Shown piece by piece: positions 39,279 through 44,829 of a stretch of 64,000 nucleotides of DNA (within the stretch, counting starts at the first letter, position 1; each line of letters begins with the position of its first letter). Under the pieces are notes generated by a model. It was not told where the DNA came from. It saw nothing but the letters and a program-made list of their open reading frames with translations, and ran no database searches. The stretch is from an uncultured Aquimarina sp. (lineage in GTDB: Bacteria > Bacteroidota > Bacteroidia > Flavobacteriales > Flavobacteriaceae), in assembly GCF_947492965.1 (NCBI RefSeq), contig NZ_CANLOZ010000001.1:744001-808000 (forward strand), written 5' to 3'. The position numbers were made by a program, and so were the translations under genes.

Positions 39279-40466
39279 ATGTTTTCAAATATAAAAGATG
39301 ACTTACAGAAGGAATTAGATGATATTAAATCAGCTGGTTTATATAAGTCAGAAAGAATAATTACCACACCACAAGGTGCCGAGATCGATACAACGAATAC
39401 CAAAGATGTTTTAAATTTTTGCGCGAATAACTATCTTGGACTTTCTTCTCATCCAGATGTTATCCAAGCTGGTAAAGATGCTATAGATTCTCACGGTTAT
39501 GGATTATCTTCTGTTCGTTTTATCTGTGGAACTCAAGATATACATAAAGAATTGGAGCGTAAAACTGCAGAGTTTTTAGGAATGGAAGACTGTATTTTAT
39601 ATGCAGCAGCATTCGATGCAAACGGAGGAGTCTTTGAACCAATCCTTACAGCAGAAGATGCAATTATTTCAGACTCTCTAAATCATGCTTCTATTATAGA
39701 TGGAATTCGTTTGTGTAAAGCAAAGCGATTTAGATACGAACATAATAATATGGTCGATCTCGAAAAGCAATTAAAAGCTGCAGAAGGATCTAGAAGAATA
39801 TTAATTGTTACAGATGGTTCATTTTCGATGGATGGAACTATCGCACAGTTAGATAAAATTTGTGATTTAGCAGATGCGTATCATGCTATGGTAATGATTG
39901 ATGAATGTCATTCTACTGGTTTTCTTGGAAAAACTGGGCGAGGTACCCATGAATATCGAGATGTAATGGGACGTGTAGACATCATTACAGGAACCTATGG
40001 TAAAGCTCTTGGAGGAGCATCAGGAGGTTTTACAGCAGCCAGAAAAGAAATTGTAGACATGTTACGTCAACGATCTAGACCTTACCTATTTTCTAATACC
40101 GTGGCACCTTCTATTGTTGGAGCATCTATAAAAGTATTAGATCTATTAAGTTCCTCTACGGCCTTAAGAGATAAACTAGAAGAAAATACTAAGTATTTTA
40201 GATCAGAAATGACAGCCGCAGGATTTGATATTGTTCCTGGAGATCATCCAATAGTACCAGTAATGTTATACGAAGCAACATTAGCTCAGGAATTTGCAGC
40301 AAAATTACTTGATGAAGGAATCTATGTGATTGGATTTTTCTATCCTGTTGTTCCTAAAGAAAAAGCACGTATTAGAGTTCAATTATCAGCTGGACATGAT
40401 AGAGAACATCTAGAAAAAGCCGTTAAAGCATTTACCAAAGTAGGTAAAGAGCTGGGAGTAATATAA
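39279..40466 (+). CDS. kbl: Glycine C-acetyltransferase (2-amino-3-ketobutyrate CoA ligase)
   Basis: 395-residue PLP enzyme of the alpha-oxoamine synthase family; makes glycine and acetyl-CoA from 2-amino-3-ketobutyrate. [49 protein letters not shown] and the PLP lysine in [23 protein letters not shown] distinguishes Kbl from other family members. Lies 57 bases behind tdh. Confidence 0.96.
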
Positions 40467-40468
40467 TT

Positions 40469-40489
40469 ACTAACGTTTGTTAGTGTTTT
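40469..40489 (+). terminator. Probable terminator after kbl
   Basis: ACTAAC (40469-40474), loop GTTT, GTTAGT (40479-40484), then GTTTT. The stem is only six pairs but begins two bases past the stop and separates kbl from the pheA promoter. Confidence 0.55.
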
Positions 40490-40607
40490 AAAACTTAGAA
40501 AATTCTTATTATAAAGGTTAGTTTATTCAAAATTTAATAGTAATTGCAGGTTAAAAATTAATAATTAATGATAATACCTGCGGATTGATGAAAAAAACTA
40601 AAATTTA

Positions 40608-40638
40608 TTTTGTATAGTAATTGTTTTAGCTACTTTAG
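40608..40638 (+). promoter_or_regulatory. Probable pheA operon promoter
   Basis: TTTTG (40608-40612) as -33 and TACTTTAG (40631-40638) as -7 (one mismatch to TAnnTTTG), 18 bases apart. Transcription would begin near 40645, about 13 bases before the leader peptide start. Confidence 0.6.
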
Positions 40639-40657
40639 CAACATAATTAAAACAGAA

Positions 40658-40738
40658 ATGAACAATTTATTTACTTGGAACCGATTTTATTTTTTCTTCT
40701 TTTATTTTAAAGGAAGTTCGGGATCGCTATGTAAATAA
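40658..40738 (+). CDS. pheL: Phenylalanine-rich leader peptide of the pheA operon
   Basis: A 26-codon frame, ATG at 40658 to TAA at 40738, beginning MNNLFTWNR and followed by FYFFFFYFK. It holds seven Phe, two Tyr and one Trp; six of the Phe codons fall in the eight codons 40685-40708. It sits between a promoter and a strong terminator in front of prephenate dehydratase, the classic layout of ribosome-mediated attenuation. The antiterminator arm (40718-40724) lies inside the last codons, so a ribosome stalled on Phe codons leaves it free, while one reaching the stop covers it. No strong ribosome-binding site is visible, as usual in this phylum. Confidence 0.85.
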   Translation: MNNLFTWNRFYFFFFYFKGSSGSLCK

Positions 40739-40760
40739 ATAAGTCAAATTTATAAATTAG

Positions 40761-40790
40761 AATCCCGATGTAGAATCGGGATTTTTTTTT
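40761..40790 (+). terminator. Attenuator terminator of the pheA operon
   Basis: AATCCCGAT (40761-40769), five-base loop, ATCGGGATT (40775-40783), then seven more T. A strong intrinsic terminator placed 20 bases before the pheA start. The left arm ATCCCGA (40762-40768) can instead pair with TCGGGAT at 40718-40724 in the leader frame, forming the antiterminator. Confidence 0.88.
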
Positions 40791-40810
40791 GAACATAAAA
40801 TTTAAAACGT

Positions 40811-41641
40811 TTGAGTAAAAGAGTTGCCATACAAGGAATAAAAGGTTCGTATCACCATGGAGTGGCACAGGCATACTTTGGTAATGAGATTGATGTTCAC
40901 GAATGCATGTCATTTCAGGAGTTAGTGCACAGCTTAGAAAATAAGAAAAGTACCGATGCAGTGATGGCGATCGAAAACTCTATCGCGGGATCAATTATTC
41001 CTAATTATGCCTACATTGATGAACATGATTTAACCATTTGTGGAGAATATTTTCAGCCAATTCATCATTGTTTAATGGCATTGGGAAATCAGGAAATTTC
41101 TGATATAAAAGAAGTATATTCTCATCCTATGGCTTTGCTTCAGTGTAAAGATTTTTTTCGTAAACACTCTCATATTAAGTTGGTCGAAGATGCGGATACA
41201 GCTGATGTTGCCAAGAGAATTCAAGAGCAGAAGTTAAGAGGTATAGCGGCAGTTGCAGGAGAAACCGCAGCTAAAATTTATGATTTGGAAATTTTAGCAA
41301 AAAATATTCAAACTATAAAAACAAATAGTACCAGATTTTTTATTCTCAATACAGATGAAAGCTCTGGCTTGGATAGTAAGGAAATCAATAAAGCATCATT
41401 AAAATTTCTTACAGATCACAAAAGAGGTAGTTTGGCTACTGTACTTAACGTTATGAGCGATTGCAGACTGAATCTTACTAAAATTCAGTCATTACCAGTT
41501 ATTGATATGCCATGGAAGTATTCCTTTTTTGTGGATGTAACGTTTGATAAATATGAAGAATATCAAAAAGCTATTTCTATATTAAAGATTATGGCTTTGG
41601 AATTAAAAATACTAGGAGAATATAAAAATCAGAACGGATGA
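40811..41641 (+). CDS. pheA: Prephenate dehydratase
   Basis: 276 residues; converts prephenate to phenylpyruvate. TTG start at 40811: the family N-terminus (SKRVAIQGIKGSYHHGVA) begins right there and no ATG is available. AIENSIAGSI and the catalytic NSTRFFIL are present. A C-terminal ACT domain for phenylalanine feedback begins near residue 195 (GSLATVLNVMSDCRLNLTKI), but its usual ESRP motif is replaced by KIQSLPV. No chorismate mutase domain; that activity is at the end of the operon. It overlaps the next gene by four bases. Confidence 0.95.
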   Translation: MSKRVAIQGIKGSYHHGVAQAYFGNEIDVHECMSFQELVHSLENKKSTDAVMAIENSIAGSIIPNYAYIDEHDLTICGEYFQPIHHCLMALGNQEISDIKEVYSHPMALLQCKDFFRKHSHIKLVEDADTADVAKRIQEQKLRGIAAVAGETAAKIYDLEILAKNIQTIKTNSTRFFILNTDESSGLDSKEINKASLKFLTDHKRGSLATVLNVMSDCRLNLTKIQSLPVIDMPWKYSFFVDVTFDKYEEYQKAISILKIMALELKILGEYKNQNG

Positions 41642-42834
41642 GTATTCAAACAGCAAAACGGTTAGAAACGATAGAGGAATATTATTTCTCTAAAAAGTTG
41701 CGTGAAGTTAGGGCACTGGCGGCTTCAGGAAAGCCGATTTTAAACATGGCTATTGGAAGTCCTGATTTGGACCCTCCAAAAGAAGTTGTAGAAGCTATAC
41801 GGACAACAGTATTGCAAGATGGCGCACATAAATACCAGAGTTATCAGGGTGTTCCAGAACTTAGAATGGCTTTTGCCAATTTTTATAATACTAACTATGG
41901 AGTAGCATTAAATCCTGAAAATGAGATTTTGCCTTTAATGGGTTCTAAAGAAGGAATTATGCATATTTCATTAGCTTACCTTAATGAAGGTGATCAGGTA
42001 TTGGTGCCTAATCCTGGATATCCCACCTATACATCTGTTACAAATTTGGTAGGTGCAGAACCACTATTTTATGATCTAAAAGAAGCTAATAATTGGGAAC
42101 CGGATTTAGAGTTGTTATCAAAAAAGGATCTAAGCAGAGTTAAGATTATGTGGATTAATTACCCTCATATGCCAACAGGAGCTTCGGGTAGTGTAGAGAC
42201 TCTTAAAAAATTAATTGCTTTTGCAAAAAAGCATCACATACTATTGGTAAATGATAATCCATACAGCTTTATATTAAACGATAATCCGACTAGCATTTTA
42301 TCTATAGGAGGTGCGAAAGATGTAGCACTAGAGTTAAATTCTCTAAGTAAGACCTTTAATATGGCTGGATGGCGAGTAGGAGTAGTAACTGGAAGTCAGG
42401 ATAAAATTGAAGCAATCCTTAAAGTAAAAAGCAATATGGATAGTGGTATGTTTTTAGGTATTCAAAAAGGAGCTATTGCAGCATTGAAATTATCCCATGA
42501 TTGGTATGATGAGATAAATGCTATCTATAAAGAAAGACGAAAATTAATATGGGAACTAGCTTCATTATTAGGTTGTTCATTTGATAAAACAGCAACCGGA
42601 ATGTTTGTGTGGGCGAAATTGCCAGAAGGAATCGACGCAGTAGAATTTATTGATCATATATTGTATAAAAACAGTGTGTTTATAACTCCTGGAGATATTT
42701 TTGGGAGTAATGGTAAAGGATATATTCGTTTTTCATTATGTGTTACTAAAGAAAATATAAAAGAAGCAATTGAACGATTTGAGAAAAAACAAACACAATT
42801 TGCGAACAATAGCATCGTACATCAAAAATCGTAA
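41638..42834 (+). CDS. Class I/II aminotransferase, probably aromatic
   Basis: 398-residue PLP aminotransferase. NMAIGSPDLDPPKEV, YQGVPELRMAFANFY, NPGYPTYTS and the PLP lysine in LNSLSKTFNMAGWRVG are clear. Coupled to pheA by a four-base overlap and followed by tyrA, so it most likely performs the last step to phenylalanine and tyrosine. The family also includes aspartate and methionine aminotransferases; the aromatic role is inferred from the operon. Confidence 0.9.
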   Translation: MSIQTAKRLETIEEYYFSKKLREVRALAASGKPILNMAIGSPDLDPPKEVVEAIRTTVLQDGAHKYQSYQGVPELRMAFANFYNTNYGVALNPENEILPLMGSKEGIMHISLAYLNEGDQVLVPNPGYPTYTSVTNLVGAEPLFYDLKEANNWEPDLELLSKKDLSRVKIMWINYPHMPTGASGSVETLKKLIAFAKKHHILLVNDNPYSFILNDNPTSILSIGGAKDVALELNSLSKTFNMAGWRVGVVTGSQDKIEAILKVKSNMDSGMFLGIQKGAIAALKLSHDWYDEINAIYKERRKLIWELASLLGCSFDKTATGMFVWAKLPEGIDAVEFIDHILYKNSVFITPGDIFGSNGKGYIRFSLCVTKENIKEAIERFEKKQTQFANNSIVHQKS

Positions 42835-42846
42835 TTTGTATATAGA

Positions 42847-43695
42847 ATGAAGGTATTTGTAATAGGAATAGGGTTAATAGGCGGGTCGTTTGCTATAGAT
42901 ATTAGAGCAGCTTTTAACGAGGCAGAGATTTATGGAGTAGATAAAAATGAACAACATTTAGACAAAGCGATTTCTTTAGGAATCATTGATGAAAAATCTA
43001 CTTTCGAAGAATTAGATAAAGCTGATGTGGTGATTGTATCCGTTCCTGTAGATATTACGGTTAAGTTATTGCCAAAAATTTTAGATAAAATTAATGACGA
43101 CTGTCTTGTTTTTGATGTAGGTTCTACAAAAAAGAAGTTATGTACCTCGGTAGGAGATCATTCAAAAAGAAGAAATTATTTAGCTGCTCATCCTATTGCA
43201 GGAACAGAGTTTTCGGGACCACAAGCAGCGATAGCCAACTTGTATAGAGGAAAAACAAATATCATTTGTGAAGTGGAAAAAACAGCCTTTAAATTGCAAG
43301 AACGTGGCATGGAGATTTTTAACAGATTAGGAATGAGAATTCGATATATGGATCCTGCGTCGCATGATAAACATATAGCGTATGTTTCGCATTTATCTCA
43401 TATTAGTTCGTTTATGTTAGGTAAGACAGTGATTGAAAAGGAAAAAAACGAAAGAGATATATTTGATATGGCAGGCAGTGGTTTCGCCTCTACGGTCCGT
43501 TTGGCAAAAAGTTCACCAGAAATGTGGACCCCAATTTTTAGACATAATAAAGAAAATGTAATAGAAACATTAACAGAATATATTGCAAATCTGACACAGT
43601 TTAAAGAATTAATGGAGGAGGATAATTTTGTTGAAATATATAAGGAAATGGAAGATACAAATCATATAAAAGCTATTCTAAAAGGAATATCATAA
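42847..43695 (+). CDS. tyrA: Prephenate dehydrogenase
   Basis: 282 residues, NAD(P)-dependent oxidation of prephenate to 4-hydroxyphenylpyruvate. Rossmann loop VFVIGIGLIGGSFAIDIR at the N-terminus, then DVGSTKKKL, AAHPIAGTEFSGP and HLSHISSFMLG. No chorismate mutase or ACT domain. Lies 12 bases after the aminotransferase. Confidence 0.95.
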   Translation: MKVFVIGIGLIGGSFAIDIRAAFNEAEIYGVDKNEQHLDKAISLGIIDEKSTFEELDKADVVIVSVPVDITVKLLPKILDKINDDCLVFDVGSTKKKLCTSVGDHSKRRNYLAAHPIAGTEFSGPQAAIANLYRGKTNIICEVEKTAFKLQERGMEIFNRLGMRIRYMDPASHDKHIAYVSHLSHISSFMLGKTVIEKEKNERDIFDMAGSGFASTVRLAKSSPEMWTPIFRHNKENVIETLTEYIANLTQFKELMEEDNFVEIYKEMEDTNHIKAILKGIS

Positions 43696-43746: not shown

Positions 43747-44829
43747 ATGGAGAATAAGAAAGAACTTAGAAACTGGTTAGATGCATATAATTTGGATCAT
43801 CCATTGGTGATTGGAGGTCCTTGTAGTGCTGAAACTGAAGAGCAAGTAGTTAAAATTGCGCATCAGCTTAAAGATTCTGACGCAACTGTACTAAGAGCAG
43901 GAATCTGGAAACCTCGTACAAGACCAGGGAATTTTGAAGGAGTTGGTGCTTTAGGATTGAAATGGCTACAACGTGCTAAAGAAGAAACAGGAATGAAGAT
44001 TGCTACCGAAGTGGCAAACCCACATCATGTAGAATTAGCATTAGAGCATGGAGTAGATGTTCTTTGGATAGGGGCAAGAAGTACAGTGTCACCTTTTATT
44101 GTTCAGGATATTGCAGATGCTTGTAAAGGAATTGATAATCCAGTATTGATCAAAAATCCTATCAATCCTGATCTTTCGCTATGGTTGGGTGCGGTAGAAC
44201 GTTTTTATACTGCAGATGTGAAAAATTTAGGAGTAATTCACAGAGGTTTTTCGACCTATGAAAAAACGAAATATAGAAATATTCCTGAATGGCAGATTCC
44301 AATTGATCTTCAAAATCGTTTTCCTGATCTTCCGTTAATTTTAGATCCTTCTCATATAGCAGGAAGGAGAGATTTGATTTTTGACCTTTCTCAAACAGCA
44401 CTAGATCTTAATTTTGACGGACTTATAGTAGAAACTCACTATGATCCAGACAATGCATGGAGTGATGCCGCACAACAAATTACACCAGATACTTTAATTC
44501 AGCATATGAAAGATTTAAAAATTCGTAAAGAAGTAGGCGTAGACGAGTCTTACCAGAAGACATTAAGTGAGTTGAGAGCAAAAATCGACGTAGCGGATAA
44601 TCAATTATTAGATGTACTATCAAAGAGAATGAAAATTTCTGACGAAATAGGAAAAGCAAAAGCAAAGCAAAATGTAGCTATCCTGCAATCCAAGCGTTGG
44701 AATGAAATTTTAGGAAAAATGATTCTTGAAGGAGAAGAAAAAGGATTAAGCGAAGAATTTATTTTAAGAATTTACAAAGCTATTCACCAAGAGTCAATCA
44801 ATCATCAAAAAAAGGTAGCGAAGTCTTAA
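43747..44829 (+). CDS. DAHP synthase / chorismate mutase fusion
   Basis: 360 residues. The first 260 are a KDO8P-synthase-like DAHP synthase: VIGGPCSAETEEQ, AGIWKPRTRPGNFEG, LPLILDPSHIAGRRD. From about 268 on follows an AroQ-type chorismate mutase (ELRAKIDVADNQLLDVLSKR). It thus catalyses the first shikimate step and the chorismate branch step. The mutase domain is at the C-terminus, as usual for Bacteroidota, and makes up for its absence in pheA and tyrA. Last gene of the operon under the Phe attenuator. Confidence 0.95.
   Translation: MENKKELRNWLDAYNLDHPLVIGGPCSAETEEQVVKIAHQLKDSDATVLRAGIWKPRTRPGNFEGVGALGLKWLQRAKEETGMKIATEVANPHHVELALEHGVDVLWIGARSTVSPFIVQDIADACKGIDNPVLIKNPINPDLSLWLGAVERFYTADVKNLGVIHRGFSTYEKTKYRNIPEWQIPIDLQNRFPDLPLILDPSHIAGRRDLIFDLSQTALDLNFDGLIVETHYDPDNAWSDAAQQITPDTLIQHMKDLKIRKEVGVDESYQKTLSELRAKIDVADNQLLDVLSKRMKISDEIGKAKAKQNVAILQSKRWNEILGKMILEGEEKGLSEEFILRIYKAIHQESINHQKKVAKS

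Follow-up and report, generated by a model that had tools for sequence, protein, structure and literature searches.

Control by leader-peptide attenuation is a classical mechanism, and its phenylalanine versions in Escherichia coli, ahead of pheA and pheST, correspond to the Phe leader of Rfam (RF01859). For Bacteroidota, the element described here may already have been predicted by Vitreschak et al. (2004), whose abstract reportedly names Bacteroidetes/Chlorobi, or by Lopatovskaya et al. (2010). A transcriptome study of Flavobacterium psychrophilum (ISME Commun. 2021, PMC9723704), in its accessible sections, gives strong clues for leader-peptide attenuation before amino acid biosynthesis operons and describes a structured 5' element upstream of pheA that also occurs in other Flavobacteriaceae genera and has no Rfam match; leader-peptide-like short frames in Bacteroides in general are covered in the accessible part of PMC7366714. 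In the open-access papers found, as far as their available text extends, attenuator control in Bacteroidota is noted only in passing.

We analyzed a 64,000-nucleotide stretch of DNA (the window) from an uncultured Aquimarina sp., a marine flavobacterium. Its pheA is preceded by what is in all likelihood a ribosome-mediated transcription attenuator of an aromatic amino acid operon, which would respond to the charging of tRNA-Phe and probably also of tRNA-Tyr. The anatomy of this element, its covariation, its spacing rule, its Tyr component and its spread beyond the family are new here.

The pheA leader region and its operon

The leader frame begins with an ATG at 40658 and ends with a TAA stop codon at 40736-40738. 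It contains 26 codons, of which seven encode Phe and two Tyr, with six of the Phe codons inside codons 10-17. The window thus holds, upstream of an operon, a short frame (predicted to be translated) that is rich in codons for the products of that operon and is kept in relatives. An intrinsic terminator is present between this frame and the first gene, as is an antiterminator that is mutually exclusive with the terminator and has its 5' arm inside the leader. Direct reading of the sequence agrees with the first-pass annotation on the 26-codon frame, its seven Phe codons, both complementary heptamers and the position of the terminator. The coordinates of all features are collected in Table 1.

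The consensus of Bacteroidota promoters is TTTG-N-TAnnTTTG. A promoter of this type is plausible ahead of the leader from its two boxes, and the TAnnTTTG box is named in the accessible text of PMC9723704. Full matches to TAnnTT(T/A)G within 60 nt 5' of the leader occur in 26 of 28 Aquimarina-centred leaders, 56 of 60 leaders from the family and 17 of 26 distant ones, and in 202 of 2280 letter shuffles. Among short frames of the window (10-45 codons, both strands), eight have at least six Phe, Tyr or Trp codons within eight; only the pheA leader is followed by a terminator within 70 nt of its stop codon, and it is also the sole frame in the window with at least seven. Ten letter-shuffled windows yielded no frame with at least seven aromatic codons in eight plus a terminator.

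The leader RNA (40638-40795) has a predicted folding energy of -36.8 kcal/mol, compared with an average of -22.3 over 200 dinucleotide-shuffled sequences (z -4.3). Such structure beyond chance would also be expected of a metabolite riboswitch, a T-box or a protein-bound leader in which the small frame is incidental. However, an Rfam scan of 40000-41500 to E 1 returned no T-box, riboswitch or leader family, the proteobacterial Phe leader included; moreover, the frame is conserved at the codon level and its spacing ties it to the antiterminator. We consider an RNA of this kind extremely unlikely. The scan of that region gave three matches in all, AgrB twice and Yfr10, each below its cut-off. One AgrB match, at 40710-40788 (27.6 versus 40 bits), probably reflects the terminator hairpin.

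The first-pass annotation had assigned the leader a four-gene target, namely pheA, an aminotransferase, tyrA and a DAHP synthase-chorismate mutase, and this assignment is upheld by Pfam matches and by the same gene order in 60 of 60 family loci. In another genome of the genus (G034, contig 1, 3855447-3856272), pheA is represented by two overlapping matches, one of which has an in-frame TAG, the result of either a broken gene or a sequencing error. Upstream of the leader, an aminotransferase-family gene on the same strand ends at 40466, and the hairpin could therefore be an ordinary terminator of that gene accompanied by a chance frame. In contrast to what this would predict, a conserved promoter box separates the gene from the leader, and leader, terminator and arms recur before pheA in 60 of 60 further genera, which makes an ordinary terminator scarcely credible.

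Table 1. Features of the pheA leader region and operon (positions in the window).
Feature	Position	Strand	Basis
-33 box TTTG, putative Bacteroidota-type promoter	40609-40612	+	sequence match in window only
-7 box TACTTTAG	40631-40638	+	18 bases past -33 box; starts 27 nt 5' of leader ATG
Leader peptide frame MNNLFTWNRFYFFFFYFKGSSGSLCK	40658-40738	+	translation; homologous frames in relatives
Lower stem, 5' strand ATTTATTTAC (leader codons 3-6), predicted to pair with GTAAATAAAT	40665-40674	+	MFE fold, covariation
Segment 1, CCGATTT; can pair with AGTTCGG (40715-40721), one mismatch, hiding segment 2	40681-40687	+	MFE fold
Sensing run, codons 10-17, Phe Tyr Phe Phe Phe Phe Tyr Phe	40685-40708	+	translation
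Segment 2, antiterminator 5' arm TCGGGAT, in last leader codons	40718-40724	+	complementary to 40762-40768; covaries with segment 3
Lower stem, 3' strand GTAAATAAAT; overlaps stop codon	40731-40740	+	MFE fold, covariation
Linker; AT-rich inner hairpin possible when segments 2 and 3 pair	40731-40758	+	fold of 40708-40772
Intrinsic terminator AATCCCGAT-GTAGA-ATCGGGATT, then T run	40761-40790	+	hairpin energy, paired cells
Segment 3, ATCCCGA, terminator left arm and antiterminator 3' arm	40762-40768	+	sequence, covariation
pheA, prephenate dehydratase, first gene of operon; TTG start listed	40811-41641	+	Pfam PDT, 3.3e-57
Class I/II aminotransferase	41638-42834	+	Pfam Aminotran_1_2; after PheA in 60/60 family loci
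tyrA, prephenate dehydrogenase	42847-43695	+	Pfam PDH_N, PDH_C; third in 60/60 family loci
DAHP synthase-chorismate mutase fusion	43747-44829	+	Pfam DAHP_synth_1, CM_2; fourth in 60/60 family loci

Conservation of the leader and covariation of its arms

A PheA scan of public genomes produced 64 loci, mostly from Aquimarina, of which 62 were used, leaving out a Pedobacter locus (L093) and a Clostridia locus (L095). The resulting Aquimarina-centred set also holds Spongiivirga, Kriegella and MAGs named only Flavobacteriaceae, Bacteroidia or Bacteroidetes. Leader, terminator and complementary segment are present at all 63 loci of this set (62 relatives and the window). They are likewise present in all 60 additional genera sampled from the family, at one locus per genus among the best matches listed (277 of 299 genomes matched), a choice biased to the PheA sequences nearest that of the window; the family would be Flavobacteriaceae, to which Aquimarina belongs. 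When close relatives were searched for loss of the leader frame or of the heptamers, which the first-pass annotation had set as evidence against its proposal, both were found to be kept.

A further 40 more distant loci were hand-picked among the matches listed (337 of 392 genomes matched). The leader architecture is found at 26 of them: 16 of the 20 that belong to other families of the class, all six from divergent family members and four of 14 from elsewhere in the phylum. No such leader was found at 13 of the 40, and the leader of one locus, L195, is weak. In L195, possibly a diverged form, the leader MYSAACLYLFYSTSAGLLRR precedes a PheA match lying in an open frame of 734 residues, and a segment of ten bases is complementary to the terminator arm of that locus. 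The Pedobacter locus has a leader too (MRLTTTYWFGYFYYFSKSRD, terminator at -64). A DAHP synthase match lies downstream in 25 of the 26 distant loci with a leader, the stretch of the 26th (L183) being short. None is found in the stretch fetched at the four class-level loci without a leader, PheA stands alone at the nine phylum-level loci without one, and L195 has a match. Because DAHP synthase tracks the presence of the leader among these distant loci, the leader appears to go with an operon that holds the pathway entry enzyme.

For comparisons among leaders, 149 were dereplicated to 114, without L093, L095 and 14 distant loci (L156, L157, L158, L175 and L186-L195). L087 and L096, identical in sequence and on contigs of equal length, were both counted. 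Counted back from segment 2, codons -4 to -8 encode Phe or Tyr in 88-98% of the 114 leaders, against no more than 8% for codons -1 to -3, such that the aromatic run ends about four codons 5' of the antiterminator arm. All four codons (TTT, TTC, TAT and TAC) are in use among the aligned leaders, and segment 2 starts between -20 and +12 relative to the stop codon in 102 of 114. The tail of the window leader (40709-40738) is frameshifted with respect to its Aquimarina relatives and reads KGSSGSLCK rather than KSKxGIAM. Despite the frameshift, the RNA arms are unchanged and the stop codon lies only four bases further on, which suggests that the constraint acts on the RNA and not on the peptide tail. 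These features bear on nascent-peptide arrest, in which, as for TnaC, the peptide sequence itself would stall the ribosome. A core W-N-x-F-Y-F-F-F and similar sequences do recur in different genera, and 75 of 114 leaders contain Trp; this residue was also considered as a third sensed amino acid, but it is shared by descent. Nevertheless, the run varies in length and order (FYFFFFYF, FYFYFFF, NYFFF, YFYFYFYFF), the tail is freely altered, and the near-constant codons are limited to those for the end products of the operon; arrest of this kind is very unlikely.

The first-pass annotation described a phenylalanine leader. Phe is the commonest residue in the run (75% at codons -4 and -6, 70% at -8), but Phe as the only sensed residue is not supported, though not disproved, since Tyr is as constant a component: at least two Tyr codons occur in 113 of 114 leaders, under a frame selection that had scored Tyr as well as Phe, and Tyr fills codon -7 in 54%. 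When frames are selected on Phe alone, the choice is unchanged at 57 of 60 loci of the family and at 23 of 26 distant ones. It is possible, though rather doubtful, that the leader senses Phe only and that the Tyr codons are incidental neighbors in a U-rich stretch, as might be supposed from the predominance of Phe, from pheA being the first gene and from the E. coli pheA leader, which carries Phe alone. Set against this are the constancy of Tyr, the presence in the operon of tyrA and of the pathway entry enzyme, and the low Tyr content of the other leaders in this genome (see below): one in trp, one in his and zero in ilv. With Tyr constant beside Phe, and tyrA and DAHP synthase in the operon, dual sensing is more likely, and the leader probably senses both amino acids.

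The two arms of the antiterminator change together across lineages. The pair is CGGGAT/ATCCCG (segment 2/segment 3) in Aquimarina; CGGGAC/GTCCCG, CGAGAC/GTCTCG, CAGGAC/GTCCTG and CGGAAC/GTTCCG elsewhere in the family; and GCCGGG/CCCGGC and CCGGGT/ACCCGG in more distant lineages. Among the 114 leaders, segment 2 pairs with its own segment 3 at a mean of -11.8 kcal/mol, and with segments from species with other arms at -7.6; the own pairing is better than the exchanged-arm mean in 111 of 114 and better in 88.4% of single comparisons. A or G at one site of segment 2 is matched by T or C in segment 3 in 101 of 104 cases, and C or T at another by G or A in 92 of 99. The segment 3 hexamer has changed at least 21 times on the PheA tree, from which two short or empty PheA sequences were omitted. 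Phylogenetic contrasts at three arm sites, with the arms placed in the register that paired best (a choice that leans to the proposed reading; 106 of 114 fitted), were consistent at two sites and equivocal at one; the starred branches of the FastTree tree provide only 3-4 independent contrasts per site, none able to reach significance. Segments 2 and 3 are paired in the minimum free energy (MFE) fold of the joining stretch in 108 of 114 leaders and unpaired in six, and the linker is more stable than the mean of its own letter shuffles in 88 of 114. Both the proposal of ribosome-mediated attenuation and the particular pairing first named, TCGGGAT with ATCCCGA, thus gain from relatives, in which the frame and the complementary arms are kept and the arms covary.

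Alignment A1 comprises 58 of the 63 Aquimarina-centred loci (without L051, L052, L054, L076 and L089). In these sequences, 98.5% of cells of the terminator are paired and both sides have changed in five of nine pairs. The antiterminator is modest in the Aquimarina-centred alignment, with 84.7% of cells paired, a level met by 105 of 500 shuffles, and a covariation score of 0.094, met by one of 500 (0.099 when slid by +3). RNAalifold recovered only the terminator from A1, as expected because the two structures are mutually exclusive. An unrestricted search for the antiterminator, in which the terminator of L076 was miscalled, preferred GATTTTA/TAGAATC or a variant over GGGAT in 10 of 63 loci; segment 2 was later sought only from 33 nt 5' to 20 nt 3' of the stop codon, a restriction that favors the proposed reading.

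Predicted folding and a model of attenuation

The terminator hairpin has a calculated energy of -14.2 kcal/mol and the duplex of segments 2 and 3 one of -11.3. With the run masked and the right arm of the terminator not yet made (40708-40772), the predicted fold is the antiterminator, at -11.9 kcal/mol. The whole fold from 40708, as with a ribosome on the run, has its MFE of -19.8 kcal/mol in the terminator and not in the antiterminator. Therefore, read-through would have to be kinetic, with segment 2 pairing before the right arm appears and the pairing then persisting.

For the leader by itself, the predicted fold (-20.4 kcal/mol) sequesters the antiterminator arm through CCGATTT:AGTTCGG together with ATTTATTTAC:GTAAATAAAT. 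The first-pass annotation had proposed a minimal design with no protector stem, a view that this prediction leaves unsupported, though not disproved. In the Aquimarina-centred alignment the lower stem has 76.7% of cells paired and a covariation score of 0.155 versus 0.108 for shuffles, none of 500 of which reach it; its number of pairs with two-sided changes is not above that of shuffles (225 of 500 match it). The upper pairing of segment 1 has 83.0% of cells paired versus at most 66.3% for slid versions, and its covariation score is equalled by 45 of 500 shuffles. Upstream pairing of segment 2 exceeds the average of a synonymous-codon null in 80 of 114 leaders (16 of 28 Aquimarina-centred, 42 of 60 family and 22 of 26 distant); the upstream pairing of the window leader itself is not distinctive, being equalled by 8 of 20 resampled leaders. 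In 71 of 114 leaders, segments 1 and 2 of the same leader pair better than the average of exchanged segments. There is little support for segment 1 pairing with segment 3: matched segments do better in 54.9% of comparisons, and 59 of 114 lie below the average for exchanges. Overall, these predictions give moderate, uneven and not decisive support to a protector stem that would hide the antiterminator arm.

Sequence comparison establishes the frame with its aromatic codons, the distance from these codons to segment 2, the pairings of both terminator and antiterminator, and the order of the genes. Attenuation could work on these parts as follows. Transcription would start ahead of the leader, which would be translated; in flavobacteria, according to the accessible text of PMC9723704, translation initiation relies on signals other than Shine-Dalgarno pairing. 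With ample charged tRNA, the ribosome would reach the stop codon and cover segment 2, and the terminator (3:4) would form. With no ribosome, the leader would fold on itself in the cell (1:2), segment 2 would be hidden and transcription would terminate. A ribosome stalled in the Phe/Tyr run would break the leader fold and leave segment 2 free past its leading edge. The free segment would pair with segment 3 before the right arm of the terminator is made, blocking the terminator, and RNA polymerase would read into pheA, the aminotransferase gene, tyrA and the DAHP synthase gene, presumably cotranscribed. The size of the ribosome footprint is established; from the spacing of the aromatic run and the stop codon, a ribosome in the run would leave segment 2 just beyond its edge, and a ribosome at the stop codon would cover it.

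We give slightly better than even chances to a broader proposal, that this is a Bacteroidota-wide attenuator that reads Phe and Tyr tRNA charging jointly at the operon for pathway entry, and in which a nearly constant spacing of about four codons separates the final sensing codon from the antiterminator arm. If true, a joint Phe/Tyr attenuator would imply close coupling of ribosome and RNA polymerase in Bacteroidota. Since a working attenuator requires a ribosome close behind the polymerase, the element would be a ready reporter of transcription-translation coupling in this phylum. The leaders also form a large covarying set of one attenuator across many Bacteroidota genera, and dual sensing can be tested directly on their mixed Phe/Tyr run.

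Comparison with known and likely attenuators

Three further leaders occur in the genome of the window. A 465-aa chorismate-binding, trpE-like gene (L198, reverse complement) is preceded by the leader MNLILTNTWWWLSYNENVVR, with three Trp codons and a strong terminator at -81, likely a trp attenuator. Before hisG (L196, reverse complement) lies MKNILLHHHHSYISAQAW, with four consecutive His codons and a terminator at -74, likely a his attenuator, and before ilvD (L200) lies the Ile/Val-rich MNLQQVIIVQIIINIVIIISR, with a terminator at -276, likely an ilv attenuator. Like the pheA leader, all three combine a short frame rich in cognate codons with a terminator; the codons differ, and the likeness rests on frame and terminator.

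The probable attenuator of the window and the pheA 5' element of F. psychrophilum (PMC9723704) are very probably the same element, judging from the accessible text of that paper, which for pheA itself describes neither a leader peptide nor arms nor a mechanism. The pheA and pheST attenuators of E. coli resemble the flavobacterial element in having a short Phe-rich frame, in the mutual exclusion of their antiterminator and terminator structures, and in targeting pheA. Unlike the E. coli systems, the flavobacterial leaders carry Tyr codons throughout, their segment 2 is placed either in the final codons of the frame or directly after the stop codon, and their target is a four-gene operon that includes tyrA and DAHP synthase.
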